DNA of 64,000 nucleotides, from contig CAJOND010000001.1 in the NCBI GenBank assembly GCA_905236675.1, positions 62,001 through 126,000 of the forward strand, given 5' to 3'. The notes under the pieces are model-generated. The model searched no databases, was not told the DNA's origin, and saw only the letters and a list, made by a program, of their open reading frames with translations. Within the stretch, counting starts at the first letter, position 1; each line of letters opens with the position of its first letter. Below, piece by piece: positions 24,701-48,668 of the stretch. The translations under genes were made by a program, and so were the position numbers. This DNA comes from Candidatus Rifleibacteriota bacterium (GTDB lineage Bacteria; Muiribacteriota; Ozemobacteria; Ozemobacterales; Ozemobacteraceae).

Positions 24701-27565
24701 TTAAGAATTTCTAATAGATAACAGTTCATAAAGAGGAAAAGTTCTATTGGTTCTTCCTTTAATACTCATGCGTTCTATAAAATTTAAACGACCAGCACCA
24801 TGAAGCTGTCTAATACTGTAAGGGCAAACAAGGATACCGGTGTGTGTGGCTTTATGAGCTTGAACTTTTAATCTGGCAGCCAGATTTACCGGATTGCCTA
24901 TAACGGTGTAATCCAGTTTGCCACTTCTAGAACCTATTTTCCCTGAAACTGCATCGCCAGAACCTATGCCCATATATATCTTAAAATCAGGTAATTCATT
25001 TTTTAATCTTTTATTTATTTCTAATGCAGTTTTGCAGGCATTTAACACAATATTTTCTTCATTACATACTTTTCTAAATACTACCATAACAGTATCTTCA
25101 ATAAGTTTATCAATTTGACCATTATATTTTGTAGAAATTTCATCAACCGCGTCTATCATATTACCGATTATTTCTGTAACTTCGTCAGGTGTGTATTCAT
25201 TTAATTCTTTTTTACTTTTTAAAGCACAGAATAAAACAGCGACAGGAATTCTTTCCCCACTAGGTTGGAGTTGTTGTTCAATGTTAGAAGAGACTTCATT
25301 TATAACTTCTTTTGAAACATAGCTGCTCATCTTTTCTTTTTGCAGTAAAGCATCTGTCATTGAATTGAAACCATTACAAAGATTCTCAAATTCATCTCCT
25401 GAATTCCAGCTGATTTTATTTGAATAATCGCCTTCTGCAATTCTTTCTGCCCCTTTTTGGAGTATTCTTATTGGTGCGACGATCAAACCACTAAGTATTA
25501 TTGAGAGTGTAAGAATCATTATTATGATGTAAATGCCTATATTTTTGAGATTTATTTTATTACTGATATTGTCTTGTTTATTTTTTTCTGCAGAAGATAT
25601 AGCTATTGCATTTATTCTGCTTAAATATGTGCCTGTATTTATTGTATTATCTTTTTTCCATGTTTTTTGAGATCTTTCAGATAAAATTTGTTCTAATTTC
25701 GGCATAATATTTGAAATATTCATATTATTAGTCATTATCATATCGTTTGATTCAGATAAATCTCCGTTTCTTTTAACAGGAACAACAGCATTTCTGATGA
25801 TATAGTCTCCCATAACTTTTTGCTCGAATAATTCTGGCATTTGTGTTTTTATACTTTTTAATATTTTTTTATTTTCAAATTTAACTAAAACGGACCCTTT
25901 TATTTTGTCTTCATGAAGAGTATTTCCATAAATAGGAAAGAGTGAATAGAGAGAATTGGGTTCGTTAGGGATCGAAGTATGAATTTCGCCTATATTAGAC
26001 ATAACAGTAGATATAGAATGAGGTTGAAAATGGTATATACCCTCTAAATCACTAGGATCTTCTATTTTTGATAAGACAGTTTCACTAAAAAAGTTACCAA
26101 CAGTATCATCAAAAAGCTTTTTAGCATTTATCCCTAAAGCTAATAAGGCGTCATTAGGTTCAGCTTTGATTATATTTTCTTTTCCACCGAGATAATTATA
26201 AGATATAAGGTTAGCACCACTAGTTTTTATCCAATTATTTAATTTTTCATTTAGTTTTTCTGCTGATAATCCATTTATTTCATTACGTAATTTTGATACT
26301 TCTAATTCTCTATTGCTTATATAAGCTTCTATTGCTTTATTTATAACTTCAGTCTGCATTCTGGTATATGTTTGAATTTCATACTCAGAGTATTCTTCTT
26401 CGAAATACTGATTATAAAAAGACGCTATAAAAAAAGAGGCAAAAGGTAGTAAAACTGCTGCTAATACACAGATTATAACTCTTCCGAGAATATGTATATT
26501 GGCGACATAACCATAAATTCCTATTTTTAAAAGTCCAAAAGTTGCAAGCAACAATAAAAGTAAAGTTGGGAAACGCAGTCTCTTAATGATAGAACGCATA
26601 GGGTGTTCCAGCTTATCGTTAGGTATCGTTATTTTGATTATTGGTTCTTTTTCTAATAATTCTTTTAAATATAAAGGGTAATATGTGTCTAGGGTTCCGA
26701 GTCTCAAAAGCATTTCTTCTGATGTTTTTGAATAGATAGACAAGCCTTCTTTTTCAACTAGCTGGTAACGGAAAAATATAGGGTCTAATTTATCTGAGAT
26801 AGTTTCAATTGATTTTTTATTCTTAGAAAAGAGCAACTTATGGTTAAAGGTTTTATTTGATTTTAATATTGCATGTTTAGCAATTTTTTTCAGAGATATA
26901 TCTTTAACTTTGAATAAGCATAAAAACATTTGTTTATTTGTCGAACTATTGTAATCAAAACTTTTATAGTAAGCTACAATTTTACCTAGGTTTGGTTTCC
27001 CAGAAAGTATGGGGATAGCATTTTCTGGCATAAGATTTATTCCACCAGCAGCATGGAGAAATGTTTCTAAATAAATAATACTTCTGTCTTTATTTTGATT
27101 TTTTTCATTTTTTGATGAGTATGCTAGAAGAAGATTTTTTAATGAATACTTTGAACGTATTTTCAAATCATTATCTTCTTCATTAGATACATAATAATCA
27201 CAATAATTCTTAGATGTATTATAATAGTAAAGTGCTAATACCTTTGTTTCAGTCTGATTTTCAATAGCTTTTGACAGCTTTAATGCATTGAGTTCATCTT
27301 TTTGAAGATCTTTATTTGGGAACTCAGAGAGTTTTGATTCTATATAATAAGAATATGTAAGTTTGTTTTTTAATTCATTAACTTCATCTATTAGTTGAAT
27401 TTTAGCTTTTGAAACTATTCTTTTTTCACTTTGTTCCAATAGATATTTAATAGAAACGGTTAAGCCCAGATAAGGCAAAATAATCAGGAAAAACCAGATT
27501 AAGAAAATAAGAAAAGGATTGGATGATAATCTGGTATTTATGTTTATTCGTTTGAACTCTTTCAA
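24701..27565 (-). CDS. Membrane receptor with HAMP and class III cyclase-like domain, type A (copy 1)
   Basis: HAMP (APIRILQKGAERIAEGDYSNKISWNSGDEFENLCNGFNSMTD) then PVAVLFCALKSKKE...IDKLIEDTVMVVF...LDYTVIGNPVNLAARL. Confidence 0.9.
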   Translation of the reverse strand: MKEFKRININTRLSSNPFLIFLIWFFLIILPYLGLTVSIKYLLEQSEKRIVSKAKIQLIDEVNELKNKLTYSYYIESKLSEFPNKDLQKDELNALKLSKAIENQTETKVLALYYYNTSKNYCDYYVSNEEDNDLKIRSKYSLKNLLLAYSSKNEKNQNKDRSIIYLETFLHAAGGINLMPENAIPILSGKPNLGKIVAYYKSFDYNSSTNKQMFLCLFKVKDISLKKIAKHAILKSNKTFNHKLLFSKNKKSIETISDKLDPIFFRYQLVEKEGLSIYSKTSEEMLLRLGTLDTYYPLYLKELLEKEPIIKITIPNDKLEHPMRSIIKRLRFPTLLLLLLATFGLLKIGIYGYVANIHILGRVIICVLAAVLLPFASFFIASFYNQYFEEEYSEYEIQTYTRMQTEVINKAIEAYISNRELEVSKLRNEINGLSAEKLNEKLNNWIKTSGANLISYNYLGGKENIIKAEPNDALLALGINAKKLFDDTVGNFFSETVLSKIEDPSDLEGIYHFQPHSISTVMSNIGEIHTSIPNEPNSLYSLFPIYGNTLHEDKIKGSVLVKFENKKILKSIKTQMPELFEQKVMGDYIIRNAVVPVKRNGDLSESNDMIMTNNMNISNIMPKLEQILSERSQKTWKKDNTINTGTYLSRINAIAISSAEKNKQDNISNKINLKNIGIYIIIMILTLSIILSGLIVAPIRILQKGAERIAEGDYSNKISWNSGDEFENLCNGFNSMTDALLQKEKMSSYVSKEVINEVSSNIEQQLQPSGERIPVAVLFCALKSKKELNEYTPDEVTEIIGNMIDAVDEISTKYNGQIDKLIEDTVMVVFRKVCNEENIVLNACKTALEINKRLKNELPDFKIYMGIGSGDAVSGKIGSRSGKLDYTVIGNPVNLAARLKVQAHKATHTGILVCPYSIRQLHGAGRLNFIERMSIKGRTNRTFPLYELLSIRNS

Positions 27566-30500
27566 AGTTTGAGCTCCCTGTAGAAGATTTCAGACTCTTT
27601 ATTTTCTGAACAGAGTTCGATTTTGTTTTTTACACATTCATAAGTGGGTTCGTCTATAAAAACTTTGCTAGATATTGCTTTTTTTGTCATAGATTCTAAG
27701 TTTTCAGCTGTTTTTAGTATATCGCCTATGAGTAGAAATTCGCGTCTTCTTGCTTTTTTTCCGGCGAAACCTATCATAACTTCTCCAGTAGCAAGTCCAA
27801 TTCCGTTTTCTATTGAGAAAAGTCCTTTAGAAATTCGTTCCTTGTTAAAATTACTTAACTGTTCTCTCATTTCTAAAGCGGCTTTACAAGCATTTAAAAC
27901 ATAATCTTTATTTTTTTCTTCATAAAAAGCTGCTGAGATGGCATCTCCAACTATTTTTTCTATTGAACCGCCATACTTGATTATGGATTTTTCCATTAAT
28001 GTAAAATAATCATTTAATAAACTTACTACAGCTTCAGGGCTGTTTTTTTCTGAAATAGTAGTAAAACTTCTAATATCAGAACTTAATACAGTAACTTTTG
28101 CTCTAGTTATTTTTTTGTCTGTTGGGTTTTCTAGGCTGGTAAACAATTTATCAGAAACAAATCTTTTTAGTTTTTCTCGTTCACAGAGTCCAACAGACAT
28201 TTTATTGAAAGAATCGGATAATTCTTCCATTTCATCGCCTGAATTCATATTTATTTTAACATTAAGATGACCAATACTTATATAATTGAGAAATTTTGAA
28301 AAAGAATTAATCGGTTCTAACAATGCTCCAGAGAAGAAATCGGAAAGAAAAACAACTGCTATAATAGAATAAAATAGTAAAAACAAAGTTATTATTTTCC
28401 CGTTGATAAAAATCATTTTGGTTTTAGTAATCAAGGCTGCACTAACAATAATACTAGGGTTATCGCGATAATAACGCCAGTTTATCAGATAATAATAATT
28501 ATCATCTTCTTTTATTTCACTTCCAGAGCGTTCTTTGCCTATGGCTTTTCTCACTGCTTCTAACTGTAAATTCTTAAAGGGATAAACGTCAGGCTGATGT
28601 ATTTTTTCTCTAAATTCACTGGCATTTCGTTCAAACAAAGCATATTTAACTTGGGCATTTTCAAGATTCTGTTCTAATAGATTGTTATAATTTTCTAACA
28701 GTAATGTATTAAACCTATAAGCCATTATATCTCTCATATTTAGAAAACTATAAACGAGAGCTCTAGGCAAATTTGGGTTTTTTTCCGGAGTTAATAATTG
28801 ATATACAATTTTATCTTTCAAGGTTAAGCTTTCACTTTGAATAAGATAGCCTTCTTTAGCTAAAATATTATGGCTATTATGGTTCTCGAAATATACTTCC
28901 GTTATGCTTGAATATTTTAAATTTTGATTGCTATTATTTTGGTTTTCAGAAGTATTATTATCTAACAAATGCATATCCGACATAATACGATATAGATTTA
29001 TAAGTTTTTTGAAATGAACTGTTTCTCCATAAGAGTTTTCAGAAGAAAAACAAATATTTTTGCCATTTCTATCTAAAATGATAGCATAAGCAATGTTATT
29101 ATATATGCTATTAATATCACTTTTAAAAATACGTATTAATAAATTTAGTGCTTCTGAGTCTTTTTGTATTTTTGCACCATTTTTGGAAAATCTTTTAATA
29201 AAATAATCAGGTTTATACTTAAAATATGCATCAGATATTATCTTTTTATGCTTAAGCATATCAAAAGTTAAATTATCGACCACATCATCTTTTATTTTTT
29301 CTAATAAAGTCATTCTCTCATTAATCTTGTTTTCTATATTTGTAATAATTATTTTTTCTTCATTTTTTAACGTTAGATTTAAAATTATGAAAAGTCCTGT
29401 CATAGGAATAATAACAGCTACTAAAACTATTATTTTTACTTTAAAAGTTAAAGATAAATTAACCTTTATGAAATTGAGAAAAATATTAAAGATATAAATA
29501 GTAAGACCTAATATTATAATGCATATGGCTATGATTGTATATTCTTTATATTTTGTATAGTAGTTATTTGTTTCTGATTTATCTATACTTAGTTCTAACG
29601 AATGATTCTTTAAGTAAAGTAAATAATTCTCACATGATTTTTTATCACTTTCTTTATGTTCTTGAACAAAGTTATAAAAATAAAAAGGGAAGGGAGAATA
29701 AAATCTTATCTTATTTTCAGAATAATCCCAAGTAGGTTTACTAACTTCTTTTTTTGAAATGTTTCTTTTTATTTTTGATAAATTAGAATTTTTACATGCA
29801 GTATATAGTATTTTGTTAATTAAAATATCTGAACTTTTAACTAAAACATAGTATAACCCTAATATATTGTTCCTATTTTTATCTGTATTAATGAAAACAT
29901 TATAATACTGATAAATGTCATTATTTCCAAAGTTATTGGAAAAAAAAGAAATACAGTTGTTTGATTTTCCTATTTCTTTATAAAAAATACTTATTTTTTT
30001 TATGATTTCTAATGTAAAAGAATTCTTAAAATCAACTATTTCCTTTTTTAATTTATCTTTATATATTTTGTTGTAATTTATTATATTTATATTTTCTCTT
30101 TTAAAAATATTTTCTGATGATGGTAATAAAGGTTTATACCCATTAAAGTTTAATGCTGAATTTTCTAGAAATCTAAATAATATTGAGCCTATACAGGAAT
30201 ATAAAAATCTATTTTTGTCATCCTTTCCTTTAAGAATTGAATTATTGTCGTCTATATCAATATTTGTTAAATCATAACCAGAACACACGAAAATCATTGG
30301 TTCAAAGCCATATTTTTCTTTTAAGAAAGCTTTGGCATAATTAATAAATCCTTTTCCTATAAAATTAGGCTTATTGTTTTCATCGTATGAGTAAGTGTAT
30401 TGAGTGTCAGAGAAATTTGGAAATTTAAAATTTTTTTCTAGATCCTTAAATGCTGTCTCTATATGAGTTTTTGGCTTCAAATCTTCTTGGAAATTGTTCA

Positions 30501-30648
30501 TTTCACCAAGTAATTGTTCTTTTATCAGTTCAAAAGAAACAGTTTCGTATTTTTGCTCTAATTCTCTAAAATAACCATAAAGATAAATCAGAGGAATTAG
30601 AATCAGAAAAAAGATAGCTGTGATTCTTATGTGAAATAACGTTTTCAT
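27562..30648 (-). CDS. Membrane receptor with HAMP and class III cyclase-like domain, type B (copy 1)
   Basis: HAMP then VTVLSSDIRSFTTISE...IEKIVGDAISAAF...RREFLLIGDILKTAENLES; 4-bp overlaps with both neighbours. Confidence 0.9.
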   Translation of the reverse strand: MKTLFHIRITAIFFLILIPLIYLYGYFRELEQKYETVSFELIKEQLLGEMNNFQEDLKPKTHIETAFKDLEKNFKFPNFSDTQYTYSYDENNKPNFIGKGFINYAKAFLKEKYGFEPMIFVCSGYDLTNIDIDDNNSILKGKDDKNRFLYSCIGSILFRFLENSALNFNGYKPLLPSSENIFKRENINIINYNKIYKDKLKKEIVDFKNSFTLEIIKKISIFYKEIGKSNNCISFFSNNFGNNDIYQYYNVFINTDKNRNNILGLYYVLVKSSDILINKILYTACKNSNLSKIKRNISKKEVSKPTWDYSENKIRFYSPFPFYFYNFVQEHKESDKKSCENYLLYLKNHSLELSIDKSETNNYYTKYKEYTIIAICIIILGLTIYIFNIFLNFIKVNLSLTFKVKIIVLVAVIIPMTGLFIILNLTLKNEEKIIITNIENKINERMTLLEKIKDDVVDNLTFDMLKHKKIISDAYFKYKPDYFIKRFSKNGAKIQKDSEALNLLIRIFKSDINSIYNNIAYAIILDRNGKNICFSSENSYGETVHFKKLINLYRIMSDMHLLDNNTSENQNNSNQNLKYSSITEVYFENHNSHNILAKEGYLIQSESLTLKDKIVYQLLTPEKNPNLPRALVYSFLNMRDIMAYRFNTLLLENYNNLLEQNLENAQVKYALFERNASEFREKIHQPDVYPFKNLQLEAVRKAIGKERSGSEIKEDDNYYYLINWRYYRDNPSIIVSAALITKTKMIFINGKIITLFLLFYSIIAVVFLSDFFSGALLEPINSFSKFLNYISIGHLNVKINMNSGDEMEELSDSFNKMSVGLCEREKLKRFVSDKLFTSLENPTDKKITRAKVTVLSSDIRSFTTISEKNSPEAVVSLLNDYFTLMEKSIIKYGGSIEKIVGDAISAAFYEEKNKDYVLNACKAALEMREQLSNFNKERISKGLFSIENGIGLATGEVMIGFAGKKARRREFLLIGDILKTAENLESMTKKAISSKVFIDEPTYECVKNKIELCSENKESEIFYRELKL

Positions 30649-33545
30649 GATTGGTTTCTCAAGCCTAAGAGTTCATAGAGCGGGAAAGTTCTTTTTGTTC
30701 TGCCTTTAATTTCTATTCTTTCTATGAAATTTAAGCGACAAGCTCCATGTATCTTTCTAATACTGTATGGACAAAGGAGAATTCCTGTATTTTTAGCTTT
30801 ATAAGCTAGAGCTTTTAGTCTAGCTGCTAAGTTTACAGGGTCTCCGATAACCGTATAATCTAATTTACCATTTTTTGAACCTATTTTGCCAGAAACAGCT
30901 TCTCCAGAGGCAATACCCATATTCATCATGAATTCTGGAAGTTCTTTTTTCAATCGTTGATTTATTTCTAATGCTGTTTTACAAGCATTTAAAACTATGT
31001 TTTCTTCGGAATTGGTTTTTCTGAATACGACCATGATTGTATCTTCGACAAGTTTATCAATCTGACCATTGAACGAGGTAGAAATTTCATCTGTGGCATC
31101 AATTAAACAACTGATAATTTTGGTTACTTCTTCTGGAGAGTATTCACTAAGTGGTTTTTCTCCTTTTAAAACACAAAACAAGACTGAAACAGGGATTCTT
31201 TCTCCGCTTGGCTGGACTTGAACATCAGAGTTTAAAGATACTTCTTCGATAACTTCCTTAGAAACATAGTTTGTCATTTTTTCTTTTTGCATCAATGCTT
31301 CTGTCATGCCATTGAAAGCATTACAGAGATTTTCTAGTTCATCCCCTGACTTCCACTCTAATTTTTCTGAATAATCTCCTTTAGCTATTTTTTCTGAAGC
31401 TTTTTGTAATTTTCTAATTGGTGTGACTATAACTCCGCAAAGCAGGATAGAAAGAGAAATAATCATCATTGTTGTGTATAAAACTATATTTTTTAAGTTT
31501 AATCCAGAAAGGGTATCGTTGGAATTTTCTATCTTTTTTGCCACACTTGCGATTATTGCGTTAACTTTATTTAAATAATTTACGGAATTAACAGAAGAGT
31601 CGGTCATCCAATTTTTATAAGATTTCTTTTCGGTTATTTCATTTAAATTTTGCAAAAGTTTAGTATCTAAAGGAAATCCTTCTGAAAGTAGCATTTTGTC
31701 TTCTGTGGGCAATAATCCTTCTTCATTAACGGGAATAATAGCATTTCTAACCACATAATCTCCCATAGTCATAATCCTGAATAAGCTTGGCATTCTAGTT
31801 CTTAAGCTATTTAATAGTTCATAGGTATCAAATTTAATAAATACTGTTCCAATTACTTTATCCGCTTTCTTTTTATCAGAAAAGATTGGGAAAAAGGCAT
31901 ATAAAGAATTAGGTTCATTCTCAACAGAAGGGTATATTTGACTAATATTATTAACTATTTTATCTAAGCTGGAAGGTAAGAAATCGATATTCGTGTATTT
32001 GTTTTGTAATTCTGAAAGATCTTTAACTTCTGATATGTCAATTTTTTTATTAAAAGCGGTCTGAAACCCTTGATCTTCTATATATTTTGTTTCTTTTCCA
32101 TATGAGGAAAGATAATCTTCTGGGTCCGCTTTAATGATTATTTCTTTATCGTTTAAATAATTATATGAAATTACACTTGCTTTATATTCTTTAAGCCATT
32201 CAGATAGGAGAGAATGCAGTTCTTCTTTTGATTGCCCAGATATTTTATTTTGTAGCTCAGAGATAGCTAATTCATTATTTCCTATATAAGATTCTATTGC
32301 TTTATTGATTAATTCGGTCTGAATTTGTGTGTAATGCTGAATTTCACTTTCAGAATATTCTTCTGTAAAATATTGATTATAATAAGCAGTTAAAATAAAT
32401 GATGAAAAAGGCAATAAAACAGCTCCCAATACACATAAAACTACTTTTGATATTATACGCGTATTGCTAACATATCCATAAATTCCAATTTTTATTAGTC
32501 CAAAAGTAGTTAACAATATAAGTAACAATGTTGGGAAGGAAAGAAATTTAATAATTGCTCTCATTGGATGTTCTAGAGCAGAATGTTTTATAGTAACCTT
32601 TAAAACAGGTCTGTTTTGTAATAACTCTTTTAAATTTAAGGGGTAATAGCTGTTTAAAGTGCCTAATCTGATCAGCATCTCATCAGATGCTTCAGCTAGA
32701 ATTGATAATCCTTCTGTATTTCTTACAAATTTATAATAGAATTCATTATTTTTAATATCGTAGTCATAGTCATCGGCAGAATCACTTATGCTTTCTTTAT
32801 CACTAATTCTGACAATCTGTCTCTTATAGTTGTTTATAACTTTTTCATTAATTGCATTATCTATTATCTCTGTAAAAGGTATGTCTTTTTCTCTAAAAAG
32901 ACATAAAAACATTCTTTTGTTGTTATCGTTTGTTGTGTTGAAAGATTTGAAAAAAGCTAACATCCTACCCAATTTCTCTTTACCAGACAAAATCGGAGTT
33001 GCTTTTTCAGGCTTGATGTTTATTCCACCAGCAGCATTTAAAAATTGCTGGAAATAGATAACATTTTTGTTTTCTATTCTTTCATTATTTTTTATCGAAT
33101 CGTAGGTTAAAAGAAGATTTTTCATGGTTTGTTCTGAATACATACCCAAATCTTCTTTGAATTTATCTGAAATATATGAGGCAAAATAATTATTAGAGGA
33201 ATCTAAATAAAACAAAGCCGTAACATCTGATTTTGTTAGTTCCTTTATAGTTACTCCCAGTTTTAAAGCATTTAAACCAATAATTGATTCTACATTGGCG
33301 AGATCAGACATTTTTCTTTCTATATAGCATGATGAATTCAAATCTTTTTGGAAGTTACCTACTTCTTCTATCAGCTGTATTTTTGCTCTTTCAAGCTGCC
33401 TTTCTTCGCTTTCTGTCAGCATTATTTCAACAACATATGATAAGACAACAAATGGAAGAATTATAAGTAAAAACCATAATGAGAATAGTAGAAATGGTTT
33501 TGCTGTCAAATTTGCTCTGATTATTTTTTTATTTAATAGATTCAT
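30645..33545 (-). CDS. Membrane receptor with HAMP and class III cyclase-like domain, type A (copy 2)
   Basis: PVSVLFCVLKGEKP...IDKLVEDTIMVVF...LDYTVIGDPVNLAARL; paralogue of 24701..27565. Confidence 0.9.
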   Translation of the reverse strand: MNLLNKKIIRANLTAKPFLLFSLWFLLIILPFVVLSYVVEIMLTESEERQLERAKIQLIEEVGNFQKDLNSSCYIERKMSDLANVESIIGLNALKLGVTIKELTKSDVTALFYLDSSNNYFASYISDKFKEDLGMYSEQTMKNLLLTYDSIKNNERIENKNVIYFQQFLNAAGGINIKPEKATPILSGKEKLGRMLAFFKSFNTTNDNNKRMFLCLFREKDIPFTEIIDNAINEKVINNYKRQIVRISDKESISDSADDYDYDIKNNEFYYKFVRNTEGLSILAEASDEMLIRLGTLNSYYPLNLKELLQNRPVLKVTIKHSALEHPMRAIIKFLSFPTLLLILLTTFGLIKIGIYGYVSNTRIISKVVLCVLGAVLLPFSSFILTAYYNQYFTEEYSESEIQHYTQIQTELINKAIESYIGNNELAISELQNKISGQSKEELHSLLSEWLKEYKASVISYNYLNDKEIIIKADPEDYLSSYGKETKYIEDQGFQTAFNKKIDISEVKDLSELQNKYTNIDFLPSSLDKIVNNISQIYPSVENEPNSLYAFFPIFSDKKKADKVIGTVFIKFDTYELLNSLRTRMPSLFRIMTMGDYVVRNAIIPVNEEGLLPTEDKMLLSEGFPLDTKLLQNLNEITEKKSYKNWMTDSSVNSVNYLNKVNAIIASVAKKIENSNDTLSGLNLKNIVLYTTMMIISLSILLCGVIVTPIRKLQKASEKIAKGDYSEKLEWKSGDELENLCNAFNGMTEALMQKEKMTNYVSKEVIEEVSLNSDVQVQPSGERIPVSVLFCVLKGEKPLSEYSPEEVTKIISCLIDATDEISTSFNGQIDKLVEDTIMVVFRKTNSEENIVLNACKTALEINQRLKKELPEFMMNMGIASGEAVSGKIGSKNGKLDYTVIGDPVNLAARLKALAYKAKNTGILLCPYSIRKIHGACRLNFIERIEIKGRTKRTFPLYELLGLRNQS

Positions 33546-36500
33546 ATCTTGAGTTCTTTGTAGAAAGGATCATGGTTACTATCGTCTTCGCAAAAATCCA
33601 TATGGTTTTTTACGACAACATAAGTTTGTTCATCTATAAAAATTCTGCTTGATACAGCATTTTTAGTCATTGATTCTATATTTTTGGCAGATTTTATTAT
33701 TTCACCAATAAGTAAGAATTCTCTTCTTCTGGATTTTTCTCCTGCAAAACCAATCATAACTTCGCCTGTTGCTAAACCGATTCCATTTTCTATAGCGAAT
33801 AAACCTTTTGCAATACGTTCTTTGTTAAATGATTCCAGGTTTTTTCTCATTTCCAAAGCTGCTTTGCAGGCATTAATAACATAGTCCTTGCTTTTGTCTT
33901 CGTAAAAGGCTGCCGATATTTCATCCCCGATTATTTTTTCTATAGAACCACCAAATTTGATAATTGATTTTTCCATTAAAGTAAAATAATCATTTAATAA
34001 ACTAACTACCTCCTCGGGTTTGTTCTTCTCAGAAATAGTGGTAAAACCTCTAATGTCAGAGCTAAGCATAGTAACCTTTGCCTTAGTGATTTTTTTATTA
34101 TCAGAATCCTCAATACTAGAAAACAATTTATCAGAAACAAATCTTTTGAGCTTTTCTCTCTCGCAAAGTCCTTCAGACATTTTGTTAAAAGAATCTGCAA
34201 GTTGCTGCATTTCATCTCCAGTTTTCATTTCTACTTTTATATTAATTTGCCCTAAACGAATTTCATTTACAAAACTAGACAAAGCTTTTATCGGTTCGTA
34301 TATAGCTCCGGCAAAAAAATCTGATAAAAGAATCGTAGCAAACATACTATAAATCAATAATATAAAAAAGAGTAAGCTGCTATTAATTATTCTTATTTGA
34401 GTTTTGGGAACTATGGCAGCTGCTACAAAAATTAGAGGATTATCGCTATAATACCTCCAGGTTTTTATATAATAATTTTGACTAGTTTCATATATATCGC
34501 TACCTGAATTTTTTATTCCTATTGCTTTATTTACCGAATCTATTTGCATTTCCCTGTATGGATAACTTTTATTTTGAGGTATTATTTCTCTGAAACCACT
34601 GTCATCCCTCTCGAAGACAGCATATTTAACTTGAGCGAAAGAATTATCTTGAGATAAAAGTTCCTTATATTTATTATTTAAAACAAAATTTACTCTTGTT
34701 GCCATTATATCTTTCATGTTTGTATAGTTGAAAGCTAAAGCTTCTGGTGAGTCGGGCTTGTCTTTTGAGGCTAATAACTGGTAAACAATTTTATCTTTTG
34801 GAGTTAAAGTATCGCAGGGAATAAGGTGGCTTTCTTTGGCTAATTCATTATTTTTATTATAAGTTTTTAGAAATGAGCTTAGATTATTTTGAACCGAAAC
34901 ATTATGATTCTCAAATTTATGACTTTCTTCCGTATTTTTCCCTAATAATCCCATTTCTGAAAGAATTTTTGCAAGTAAAGTAATCCTATCGACTTTTTCT
35001 ATTTTTTTATTCTCGTTTTCGCTAAATGCTTTTGCTGATTTCCCAGATTTATCTAATATATATAATTGACTAAAAATATTACTGGTTCCTTCGTATGCTA
35101 GTTTATGCAGTATTTGACTTTTATCTATCAGTTTAAAATTATTAAAAAATTTATCTATAGAGGAATTAAATAATAGATCTTCAAGCATTTTTTTATGCTT
35201 GAGCAGATCTATAGAAAAATTATTAACCGCATCATTCTTTATTTTATCAAATAACTCAAGCCTATCGGAAATGATTTTCTCAGATTTAGATATTAATATT
35301 CTATTTTCGTTTTCCATTCCTAAATATGAAATAATCCATAGACCAGTCATTGGAACTATGACAGCAACCAATACTATGATTCTGATTTTTAAGGAAAGAG
35401 GGGTATTAAAATTAACTATTTTTAAGAATATATTAAAAATATATATAATCAAAAGAAAGATTATCACAAACAAAGTGTTTTTTATAATATTTTTAAAAGT
35501 TAAGTATTTGTTTGGAATTGATTTCCTTTTAACAAAAACACAAAGGGAATTGTTTTGTATATAATCTTGATAAACTTTGTATGACTCATCATCCCCCGAT
35601 CTGTGTTCCAATATGAAATTATAAAAATGAGATGGGAAAGGTATTTCAAATTCTATGGTTTCTTTGGTTAAATTCCAAGTGGGTATTTTTATTCCTTTAT
35701 TAGTTATTTTTCTTTCTATTTTTGTCAATTTGTCTCTATTATTATTAAAACATGCTGAATAAATCAGTCTCTTTATATTTATATCAGAACCCTTGAATAG
35801 AACATAATATAGACCTAAGATGTTATTACTTTTATTGCCTTTATTTAAAAAAGCATTGTAATATTCATAAACTCTTTGATTCCCGAACTTATTGGCAAAG
35901 AAAGCAAAACATTTATTGGGTTTCCCTAAATTTTTATAAAAAATGGATATATTTTTAATAACTTCCAAAACAAAAGTCTGTTCATTATATTTTTTTAGTT
36001 TTTTATAACTTGATTCAAAATTTTCCAAAGTATCATCTACTATAGGTTTAATATTTATAAACTCGTTTTTATTATTATTTAAGCACTGATATATAATGCT
36101 GCTTATACAAGAATAAAGGAAAATGTCTTTTTTATCTTTGTCGTCATAGAGCTTATCTTTATCAATAAACATGGTATTGGAAAAATCATTATCGGTTGTT
36201 ATAAAAACAAAGGGTTCCATATCATATTTTGAACCAAGATAATTACTTGCTTTATATATAAAGTCTTTCCCTAAAAAAGAAGTTTTTTTACCATCGTTAA
36301 AAGTATTGTTGTTTAATTCTGAAATATTGAACTGAGTTTCTAAATCTTTAAACGCGTTTTCGATATATTTTTCAGGAAGTAAATCTTCCTGGAATTCGCT
36401 CATTTCTTTTAATAATTGTTCTTTTACAAGTTCCTCTGTGGCTGTTTCATTTTTATCTGCCAATTCATCAAAATATAAAAATAAATAATAAAAAGGGATA

Positions 36501-36550
36501 ATTATTAATGCAAATAAAGTTAAAACTCTAATGTGGTTAAAGATTTTCAT
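33542..36550 (-). CDS. Membrane receptor with HAMP and class III cyclase-like domain, type B (copy 2)
   Basis: VTMLSSDIRGFTTISE...IEKIIGDEISAAF...RREFLLIGEIIKSAKNIES; paralogue of 27562..30648. Confidence 0.9.
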   Translation of the reverse strand: MKIFNHIRVLTLFALIIIPFYYLFLYFDELADKNETATEELVKEQLLKEMSEFQEDLLPEKYIENAFKDLETQFNISELNNNTFNDGKKTSFLGKDFIYKASNYLGSKYDMEPFVFITTDNDFSNTMFIDKDKLYDDKDKKDIFLYSCISSIIYQCLNNNKNEFINIKPIVDDTLENFESSYKKLKKYNEQTFVLEVIKNISIFYKNLGKPNKCFAFFANKFGNQRVYEYYNAFLNKGNKSNNILGLYYVLFKGSDINIKRLIYSACFNNNRDKLTKIERKITNKGIKIPTWNLTKETIEFEIPFPSHFYNFILEHRSGDDESYKVYQDYIQNNSLCVFVKRKSIPNKYLTFKNIIKNTLFVIIFLLIIYIFNIFLKIVNFNTPLSLKIRIIVLVAVIVPMTGLWIISYLGMENENRILISKSEKIISDRLELFDKIKNDAVNNFSIDLLKHKKMLEDLLFNSSIDKFFNNFKLIDKSQILHKLAYEGTSNIFSQLYILDKSGKSAKAFSENENKKIEKVDRITLLAKILSEMGLLGKNTEESHKFENHNVSVQNNLSSFLKTYNKNNELAKESHLIPCDTLTPKDKIVYQLLASKDKPDSPEALAFNYTNMKDIMATRVNFVLNNKYKELLSQDNSFAQVKYAVFERDDSGFREIIPQNKSYPYREMQIDSVNKAIGIKNSGSDIYETSQNYYIKTWRYYSDNPLIFVAAAIVPKTQIRIINSSLLFFILLIYSMFATILLSDFFAGAIYEPIKALSSFVNEIRLGQINIKVEMKTGDEMQQLADSFNKMSEGLCEREKLKRFVSDKLFSSIEDSDNKKITKAKVTMLSSDIRGFTTISEKNKPEEVVSLLNDYFTLMEKSIIKFGGSIEKIIGDEISAAFYEDKSKDYVINACKAALEMRKNLESFNKERIAKGLFAIENGIGLATGEVMIGFAGEKSRRREFLLIGEIIKSAKNIESMTKNAVSSRIFIDEQTYVVVKNHMDFCEDDSNHDPFYKELKI

Positions 36551-43051: not shown

Positions 43052-44473
43052 ATGACACAGCAGGGTATTCACTTTATTGGAATCGGCGGTGTTGGAATGA
43101 GTGGCATTGCCAGCATTTTCTTACAGAAGGGCTACAGAGTTTCTGGCTCGGATATAAGCGAAAACGATAGAACCCTTAAATTGGCTAATCAAGGTGCACG
43201 TATCTTTATTGGTCATAAATCTTCCAATATTATTGATGGCATAGATTGGGTAGTTGTTTCTTCGGCTATCAGTCATAATAACCCTGAATTGGTTGAAGCT
43301 CAAAAACGTAAGCTTAATATAGTTCACCGTTCCGACCTTTTGGCAGAACTCTTCTTGGATGCTAAATGTGGAATAGCTGTAGCTGGCTGCCATGGTAAAA
43401 CCACTGTTAGCTCTATGATTTCTACTGTTCTTACAGAAGCAGGGAAAGATCCAACTTGTGTCGTAGGTGGGCATGTAAAAGCTCTAAACGGTAATTCTTC
43501 TTTCGGCAAATCAGGTTTGCTTGTAGCAGAGTCTGACGAAAGCGATGGGACTTTCTTGAAATATTTCCCTCAATATGGTGTTATTACTAACATCGATAAC
43601 GACCATATGGATCATTATTCAAGCTTAGATGCCATTATTGAAGCTTTTGAAAGATTCGCAAGTCATATAAGTGAATCTGGTGGTCTTTTCCTTTGTGCTG
43701 ATGATGTAATTGCTCGTAATCTTTCTCTTCCAGAAAAACTTCGCACTATAACCTATGGTATAGATACTGCTGCTGATTTTATGGCCGAAGATATCAGCTA
43801 TCATCCCTTCGGGTCTAGCTATACTTTAACAGTCGGCGGCAAAGATTATGGTAGAGTAGAACTTTCTGTTCCAGGAAGACATAATGTTTTAAACTCCCTC
43901 CCTGTAATAGCTTTCTGCATTGAGATAGGTCTTTCTATCGAAGTAATACTTGAAAGTCTTAAAAATTTCCATGGTGCAGGACGCAGATTTGAAATTAAAG
44001 GCGAATGTGAAGGTGTTACCGTAATAGATGATTACGGTCATCATCCAAACGAAATAAAGGCAACTCTTGAAGCTGCCAGTAGCTTAGGGGCAAAAAGAGT
44101 TGTTGTAGTATTCCAGCCTCACAGATATTCAAGGACTCTATTTCTTTCACAAGAATTTGGACGTTGCTTCGACAATTGTGACAAGCTTTTCATTACAGAT
44201 ATTTATGCTGCATCTGAAAAGCCTATTCCTGGTGTAACAAGTAAAGTGATTCTGGATCATATGCCTGTTTCTAACAGACGTAAAGTTAAAATGGTCAAGA
44301 ATGTTGATGATGTTAAGTATATGCTACTTAACTATGTTGAACCAGGAGACGTAATATTCACGATGGGCGCTGGTAATATTACAAGACTCGGCAATGAGTT
44401 CCTTGAATCTATGCGTGCAAGGAACCACGTGGTTGATTTCAATAATATTCCAGCAAGTATGGCAGCCGTATAA
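43052..44473 (+). CDS. murC: UDP-N-acetylmuramate--L-alanine ligase
   Basis: HFIGIGGVGMSGIA, GCHGKTTVSSM, DDYGHHPNEIKATLEA. Confidence 0.97.
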   Translation: MTQQGIHFIGIGGVGMSGIASIFLQKGYRVSGSDISENDRTLKLANQGARIFIGHKSSNIIDGIDWVVVSSAISHNNPELVEAQKRKLNIVHRSDLLAELFLDAKCGIAVAGCHGKTTVSSMISTVLTEAGKDPTCVVGGHVKALNGNSSFGKSGLLVAESDESDGTFLKYFPQYGVITNIDNDHMDHYSSLDAIIEAFERFASHISESGGLFLCADDVIARNLSLPEKLRTITYGIDTAADFMAEDISYHPFGSSYTLTVGGKDYGRVELSVPGRHNVLNSLPVIAFCIEIGLSIEVILESLKNFHGAGRRFEIKGECEGVTVIDDYGHHPNEIKATLEAASSLGAKRVVVVFQPHRYSRTLFLSQEFGRCFDNCDKLFITDIYAASEKPIPGVTSKVILDHMPVSNRRKVKMVKNVDDVKYMLLNYVEPGDVIFTMGAGNITRLGNEFLESMRARNHVVDFNNIPASMAAV

Positions 44474-47687: not shown

Positions 47688-48668
47688 ATGGCCAAAGGTC
47701 CTGTTTCTCAGTTTATTAATCATCATTTTCGTCATTTCAATTCTGCTGCCCTCATGGATGCTGCAAAAGCCTATGATGAACACATTAATAAAGGCGGCAA
47801 AATGATGCTTGCTATGGCTGGTGCAATGAGCACAGCCGAACTTGGTCTTTCTCTTGCTGAAATGATTCGTCAAGACAAAATTTCTATTGTTTGCTGTTCA
47901 GCAAATAATCTAGAAGAAGATGTCATGAATCTTGTTGCTCATAATCACTATTATAGAGTTCCGCATTATCGTGACCTCACCCCAGAACAAGAACAGGAAC
48001 TTTTGAATAATCACTATAATCGTGTTACAGATACTTGTATTCCTGAAGAAGAAGCTTTTAGAAGATTAGAAGATCATTTAGTAGATATTTGGAATGATAT
48101 GAAAGCTAAAGGCGAAAGATTGTTCCCATGGGAAGTAATGTATCGCTTACTTAGAAGTGGTGTTCTTGAACAGTACTATGAAATAGATCCAAAAGATAGC
48201 TGGGTTTTAGCAGCCTGCGAAAAGAACATCCCTATATTGGTTCCAGCTTGGGAAGACTGCACAACAGCAAATATATATACTGCTCACTGTATTAAAGGTG
48301 AATTCGATGCTTCTAAGTCAATGATTAAAAACGGCATTGAAACAATGATTTTCTTAACCGAATGGTATAAAAAGAATGGTGGCGGTCAAGGCTGCGGTTT
48401 CTTCCAGATTGGTGGAGGTACTGCAGGTGACTTCCCAATTTGCTGTGTTCCAATGATGGAACAAGACTTAGGCTGGAAGGGTACACCACTTTGGGCTTAT
48501 TTCTGCCAGATTTCAGACTGCACTACTTCTTATGGTTCTTATTCTGGTGCTGTTCCAAACGAAAAGATTACCTGGGGTAAGCTTTCACCAACAACTCCAA
48601 GATTCATTATTGAATCTGATGCTACAATAGTTGCTCCATTACTTTTTGCTTATGTATTAGGCTGGTAA
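47688..48668 (+). CDS. Deoxyhypusine synthase-like protein
   Basis: MMLAMAGAMSTAELGLSLAEMIRQ, VPAWEDCTTAN, FFQIGGGTAGDFPICCVPMM. Confidence 0.9.
   Translation: MAKGPVSQFINHHFRHFNSAALMDAAKAYDEHINKGGKMMLAMAGAMSTAELGLSLAEMIRQDKISIVCCSANNLEEDVMNLVAHNHYYRVPHYRDLTPEQEQELLNNHYNRVTDTCIPEEEAFRRLEDHLVDIWNDMKAKGERLFPWEVMYRLLRSGVLEQYYEIDPKDSWVLAACEKNIPILVPAWEDCTTANIYTAHCIKGEFDASKSMIKNGIETMIFLTEWYKKNGGGQGCGFFQIGGGTAGDFPICCVPMMEQDLGWKGTPLWAYFCQISDCTTSYGSYSGAVPNEKITWGKLSPTTPRFIIESDATIVAPLLFAYVLGW

Follow-up and report, generated by a model that had tools for sequence, protein, structure and literature searches.

Adjoining half-site class III cyclase receptor genes of Candidatus Rifleibacteriota as predicted heterodimeric membrane adenylyl cyclases

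Organization of the cyclase locus

The window is a stretch of 64,000 nucleotides from a Candidatus Rifleibacteriota genome (contig CAJOND010000001.1, positions 62,001 to 126,000), and its minus strand carries four adjoining genes for HAMP/class III cyclase receptors, transcribed in the order B1-A1-B2-A2 (Table 1). All four products match PF00211 (1.6e-16, 4e-10, 2.1e-17 and 8.6e-10 for B1, A1, B2 and A2, respectively; 38.9–63.8 bits against a cut-off of 21.9 bits), and the match lies at the C-terminus with a HAMP domain preceding it, that of B2 falling below the Pfam cut-off. The description in the first-pass annotation of two tandem pairs of complementary half-site cyclase receptors is thus borne out by four open reading frames with PF00211 domains above the cut-off, with amendments of detail. 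The annotation gave each protein a HAMP and one large extracytoplasmic sensor, but a hydropathy scan places four transmembrane (TM) segments in each, bounding two extracytoplasmic regions of ~300 aa; and it read every gene junction as a 4-bp ATGA overlap, which is correct for two of them, but the B2/A2 junction is TTGA.

The cyclase domains are more alike than the proteins that carry them, with B1 and B2 sharing 77% identity in the domain and 51% over the whole ORF, and A1 and A2 75% and 53%. Pfam recognises no sensor domain in 61 homologs, and an AF2 model of B1 (pLDDT 59.9) is of too low a quality for a sensor to be recognised from it. The neighboring genes code for an OPT transporter, ApbE, a NusG domain II protein, a TPR protein and an M16 peptidase, with no evident shared pathway among them, and promoter and terminator scans return matches no more frequently than chance. 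Elsewhere in the window, at 47688-48668 on the plus strand, is a gene for a deoxyhypusine-synthase-family protein (PF01916). Its homologs in two congeners (L101 and L104) are 99.7–100% identical to it in protein and ~90% in DNA, whereas the genes nearby in those congeners reach only ~50–78% identity; in both of them this gene adjoins the cyclase pair.

Table 1. Positions of the receptor genes, cyclase domains and junctions in the window, and of related genes elsewhere in the same genome (G000)
Feature	Position	Strand	Description
Gene B1	33542..36550	-	1002 aa; 4 TM, two extracytoplasmic regions, HAMP, metal-type cyclase half-site
B1 cyclase domain	33587..34111	-	D1, D2 present; purine Asp to Glu, Asn to Lys, Arg to Asn; without KG lysine
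Gene A1	30645..33545	-	966 aa; 4 TM, two extracytoplasmic regions, HAMP, purine/transition-state half-site
A1 cyclase domain	30669..31250	-	D1 to Val; K, D2, D3, N, R, KG lysine present
Gene B2	27562..30648	-	1028 aa; layout as B1
B2 cyclase domain	27601..28131	-	Metal-type half-site
Gene A2	24701..27565	-	954 aa, TTG start; layout as A1
A2 cyclase domain	24722..25303	-	D1 to Ala; K, D2, D3, N, R, KG lysine present
B1/A1 junction	33542..33545	-	ATGA, 4-bp overlap
A1/B2 junction	30645..30648	-	ATGA, 4-bp overlap
B2/A2 junction	27562..27565	-	TTGA, 4-bp overlap (A2 start TTG)
Fused B-A gene	C22:28365-34424		Open frame
Fused B-A gene	C22:34439-40756		Open frame
Fused B-A gene	C22:47156-53362		Open frame
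Fused B-A gene	C22:78971-84943		Open frame
Single-copy receptor L038	C4:9714-12629		4-TM, HAMP, cyclase; complete site; no adjoining partner

Catalytic residues of the two domain types

Residue positions were read from an alignment to solved class III cyclases together with all 29 PF00211 domains of the genome, and the residues to which the first-pass annotation had assigned a function do stand at catalytic positions. The type B domains (B1 and B2) have both metal-binding aspartates, the first (D1) in SSDIR and the second (D2) in IIGD or IVGD, as had been proposed. They had also been thought to be without the block that reads DYTVIG in type A; the block exists as REFLLIG, but the purine-selecting Asp (D3) is replaced by Glu, the ribose Asn by Lys and the transition-state Arg by Asn. 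The type A domains (A1 and A2) are the complement, again as proposed, with Val or Ala at the first metal Asp (LFCVLK, LFCALK) and with Lys (IDKL), purine Asp (LDYT), and Asn and Arg (VNLAAR) all in place. A position that the first-pass annotation had not considered follows the same pattern: a phosphate-binding Lys in a KG motif is present in A and gone from B, and its column, judged by residue spacing and the C2 sequence, is presumably that of K1065 in the C2 domain of mammalian transmembrane adenylyl cyclases (tmACs).

The division of metals to B and of Lys, Asp, Asn and Arg to A holds, but A1 and A2 also have the second metal Asp (IDKLVED, IDKLIED) and B1 and B2 also have the Lys (IEK), so neither half is fully stripped. 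No subunit has every catalytic residue as Rv1625c and CyaC do, since A is without D1 and B without Asn and Arg; the full set of two metal Asp, base-selecting pair, Asn and Arg is obtained only by combining one A with one B. In both half-site cyclase domains dN is much lower than dS, reflecting purifying selection on each of them.

Distribution of half-sites, pairs and fusions

The 29 PF00211 domains of the genome comprise ten B, ten A and nine complete ones, none of the nine having an adjacent cyclase partner. With the ten B and ten A domains paired and the nine unpaired ones all complete, the pairing of half-sites is not due to chance (Fisher p = 1e-7). Pair loci were partly chosen by A-type score, and a census of all 61 domains of a near-complete relative (G027) was run for lack of that bias: none of the 36 paired domains, which form about eighteen B/A pairs, is complete, compared with 23 of the 25 unpaired ones. 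For the two genomes combined, a complete site is found in 0/56 paired versus 32/34 unpaired domains (p ~2e-22, ignoring kinship). Unpaired A or B genes occur almost solely at contig ends or as damaged copies. With 61 class III cyclase domains in ~5.4 Mb, the set in the relative is unusually large.

The window genome contains two further split gene pairs, on contigs C6 and C9, and contig C22 has B and A joined as halves of one open frame of ~2,000 aa with about eight TM segments; four such genes are intact and a fifth has a frame break near 43,700. Four fused genes, including the frame-broken one, form a tandem array of ~25 kb (L030 and L031, C22:28365-53362), with the remaining one (L032) lying apart. 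Damaged fused receptors are also present, with the A half broken into frames on C28 (L035) and the B cyclase domain seemingly missing on C38 (L036); this may be decay or assembly error. The nearest named records are Candidatus Riflebacteria metagenome-assembled genomes from rumen, goat and groundwater.

The search of relatives for such gene pairs, an in-depth survey of this phylum, yields 77 non-redundant B/A pairs, 39 split and 38 fused. All 77 B domains have D1 and D2 and few keep Asn (three) or Arg (nine); D1 is absent from every A domain and K, N and R are kept in every one. The K1065 equivalent is retained in 75/77 A domains and D2 is gone from about half. D3 is Asp in 69/77, as expected for ATP, with S, T, I or N in the other eight. 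The fused products are ~2,000 aa long and the metal half always comes first. A single polypeptide of the tmAC kind is thus found in the C22 paralogs and in 38/77 pairs, but not in the window, where the four ORFs are separate. The constancy of these features over 77 pairs, and the presence of natural B-A fusions in the same genome and in the phylum, support the proposed A:B heterodimers.

At a strict threshold, 23 of the 24 genomes in the window's family have A-type domains, and half-site pairs are present in the remaining one as well. A-type signals in other families of the phylum were pursued at three loci (L092, L093 and L096), each of which is a complete single cyclase. A rule that B always lies upstream of A is contradicted by A-B split pairs of relatives (L135, L162, L159 and probably L130 and L134). 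Four of these (L134, L135, L159 and L162), apparently with A then B, are the reverse of the window and of all fusions, and three of the four have His at the D1 position of A.

Some other loci have departures of their own. The fused protein at L065:9806-15967 has D, K, D, D, N and R in its first half and no D1 in its second, and would be either intermediate or reverted. On a contig labelled Fibrobacter sp. (L078:5532-12771), ~1.2 kb separates a metal-type cyclase from one of the transition-state type, in which an in-frame TAG directly follows IDK; these are possibly an independent case of a half-site pair. The contig titled 'Erysipelotrichia bacterium INTA.CYC.134' (L069) groups with Riflebacteria cyclases and its match coordinates are identical to those in family member G030 (C563:3421-3981), so its public label looks wrong.

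Evolutionary history

In a domain tree built with the catalytic columns masked, a branch with SH-aLRT 94 sets the A domains to one side. Grouping B in a single clade (p-AU 0.70) is not rejected, and the same is true of a single clade for A+B (p-AU 0.80); these results are consistent with, and do not prove, one duplication behind the A and B types. A tree of concatenated pairs has a 99% branch that parts split from fused pairs with two exceptions, a frame-broken gene and a basal split pair, and is compatible with about one fusion event. The window pairs cluster with the single pairs of two congeners, which are next to the same ApbE and NusG-like genes, so either a whole pair has been duplicated in tandem in the window or one has been lost from its relatives.

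The single-copy receptor L038 is like the window receptors in its four TM segments, HAMP and related cyclase domain, and differs in having a complete site and no adjacent partner. Full-length orthologs are present in most family members, with all twelve examined being unpaired, and L038 looks like a living form of the pre-duplication state. The complete-site single receptor, the split B/A pair and the B-A fusion all coexist.

Comparison with known class III cyclases

The same partition of residues is known from eukaryotic enzymes. In tmACs the C1 aspartates hold the metals and C2 contacts base and ribose and, through R1029 and K1065, the phosphates (PMC9223806); in soluble guanylyl cyclase (sGC) the alpha subunit supplies the metal Asp pair and beta the Arg and Lys, and homodimers are inactive because the catalytic residues are divided between subunits (PMC3591389). 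Sequence profiles of the two types follow this partition. The A profile prefers sGC beta (2.5e-15) and tmAC C2 (5.7e-13) to sGC alpha (4.8e-8) and C1 (1.6e-8), and within AC5, AC8, AC9 and AC10 (AC10 being sAC) it selects the C2 half; the B profile prefers sGC alpha (2.1e-12) to beta (1e-3) and picks the C1 half. These preferences probably stem from the retention of the same residues rather than from common descent. An AF2 model of a 1174-aa stretch of a fused relative, from a 31-row alignment, has a mean pLDDT of 79.5 but a pTM of only 0.54; human AC5 and AC9 are among the top structures that Foldseek retrieves for it (TMq 0.28–0.31). A lone cyclase domain gives 0.14, about half as much, and the doubling is what would be expected if both domains superpose jointly on AC5 or AC9, which is an indirect indication.

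Mammalian AC1-AC9 (class IIIa, C1a/C2a) are similarly built of two homologous membrane halves, with the metal Asp pair in the first and Lys/Asp/Asn/Arg/Lys in the second; the fused relatives have the same order of halves, and one live and one dead site are predicted in both. They differ in that the window pairs are separate genes, in having 6 TM per half where the window halves have 4 TM, large extracytoplasmic regions and HAMP, and at C1 Arg484, where all 77 B domains have Gly; regulation by G proteins is not expected. Gly at this position is also seen in two complete single cyclases of the genome (L003 and L008). The sGC alpha/beta enzymes share the two-gene heterodimer pattern, B and A resembling alpha and beta respectively, but are soluble, haem/NO-regulated, eukaryotic and make cGMP.

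Bacterial class III cyclases are described as homodimerizing monomers (PMC4821796, PMC12505454), and a 2022 review gives fused ones as unknown in bacteria (PMC9552081). Among open-licence papers we find no report of bacterial heterodimeric class III cyclases; an earlier mention elsewhere is possible. The homodimeric Rv1625c, CyaC and CyaB share the catalytic fold, and CyaB, along with other bacterial cyclases, is among the closest solved sequences to the window domains, but each of their subunits has the full set and forms two symmetric sites, whereas the window subunits have half each. There is an engineered parallel: the Rv1625c single mutants D300A and R376A are described as inactive and co-expression restores activity (PMC4821796). 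These too are two complementary half-dead cyclases with one site restored, but in the window the division is natural and is fixed across a bacterial family.

Predicted mechanism and alternatives

From the gene layout, the complementarity of residues and its invariance, the purifying selection and the fusions, we infer dimerization, activity, cAMP as the product, and sensing. B1:A1 and B2:A2 are very likely obligate heterodimeric membrane class III adenylyl cyclase receptors with one composite site and gating by two subunits, 'obligate' and 'catalytic' being predictions made from sequence. By analogy with tmACs, sGC and Rv1625c, whose division of residues is fixed in the window pairs, obligate A:B dimers with one cAMP-making site would be expected. 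B would supply the two aspartates that hold two catalytic metals (the role of tmAC C1 and sGC alpha) and A the purine-selecting Lys and Asp, ribose Asn, transition-state Arg and phosphate Lys (the role of C2 and sGC beta), making one composite site complete and the pseudo-symmetric site dead in each heterodimer. TM4 and HAMP would relay signals from the extracytoplasmic regions and so set how far the shared site closes, a single cAMP output thereby integrating two different subunits, and the eight cNMP-binding proteins encoded in the genome could read it. The genes of a pair would be translationally coupled and duplicated as a unit, and in a sister lineage the pair would have become one polypeptide.

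Receptors with HAMP usually homodimerize, and each subunit might likewise work alone, B with substitutes for the Asn and Arg and A as a one-metal cyclase; the second Asp of A1 and A2 and the Lys of B1 and B2 leave some room for this. We consider it extremely improbable, given that the half-sites come in pairs, often fused one-to-one, that D2 has gone from about half of the A domains, and that either of the corresponding Rv1625c mutations was described as inactivating by itself (PMC4821796). Loss of the Arg484 equivalent from B could be taken to mean that the pairs are catalytically dead pseudo-receptors regulating other proteins, but this is very improbable: the invariant residues (K, N and R in A, D1 and D2 in B) are exactly those that one composite site needs, complementary retention of this kind is not that of a decaying dead site, and both domains are under purifying selection.

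Other alternatives accept the heterodimer and concern its partners or its product. Pairing could be promiscuous (A1:B2 and so on), making a combinatorial network rather than insulated pairs, and the numbers of A and B domains in each of the two genomes, along with the high identity of the cyclase domains between the window pairs, make this conceivable; strict adjacency, coupling, repeated fusion and the near-restriction of unpaired halves to contig ends or damaged copies favor pairing in cis, and we regard cross-pairing as possible but doubtful. The product could be another nucleotide such as cGMP, as the eight relatives' A domains with a substituted purine Asp might suggest; it is unlikely here, A1 and A2 having the Lys and Asp that form the adenine-selecting pair of C2. 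For the heterodimeric adenylyl cyclase that we prefer, the natural B-A fusions are the strongest sequence evidence of one-to-one association.

The chemistry would be of a known kind; the novelty lies in a predicted heterodimer in bacteria and in its fused form. In these membrane receptors a single active site would depend on cooperation between two different sensor subunits. We think it probable that pseudoheterodimeric membrane adenylyl cyclases acting as two-input cAMP gates arose independently, and expanded greatly, in a single bacterial family, with all three stages coexisting. If so, the stages would be the complete-site single receptor, the split complementary pair and the metal-half-first fusion, and with its own sensors on each half every enzyme would be a two-input gate for cAMP. 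Natural cases are numerous in the lineage, where pairs occur split as well as fused and an unduplicated relative persists, so that the steps from homodimer to pseudoheterodimer are directly testable in it.
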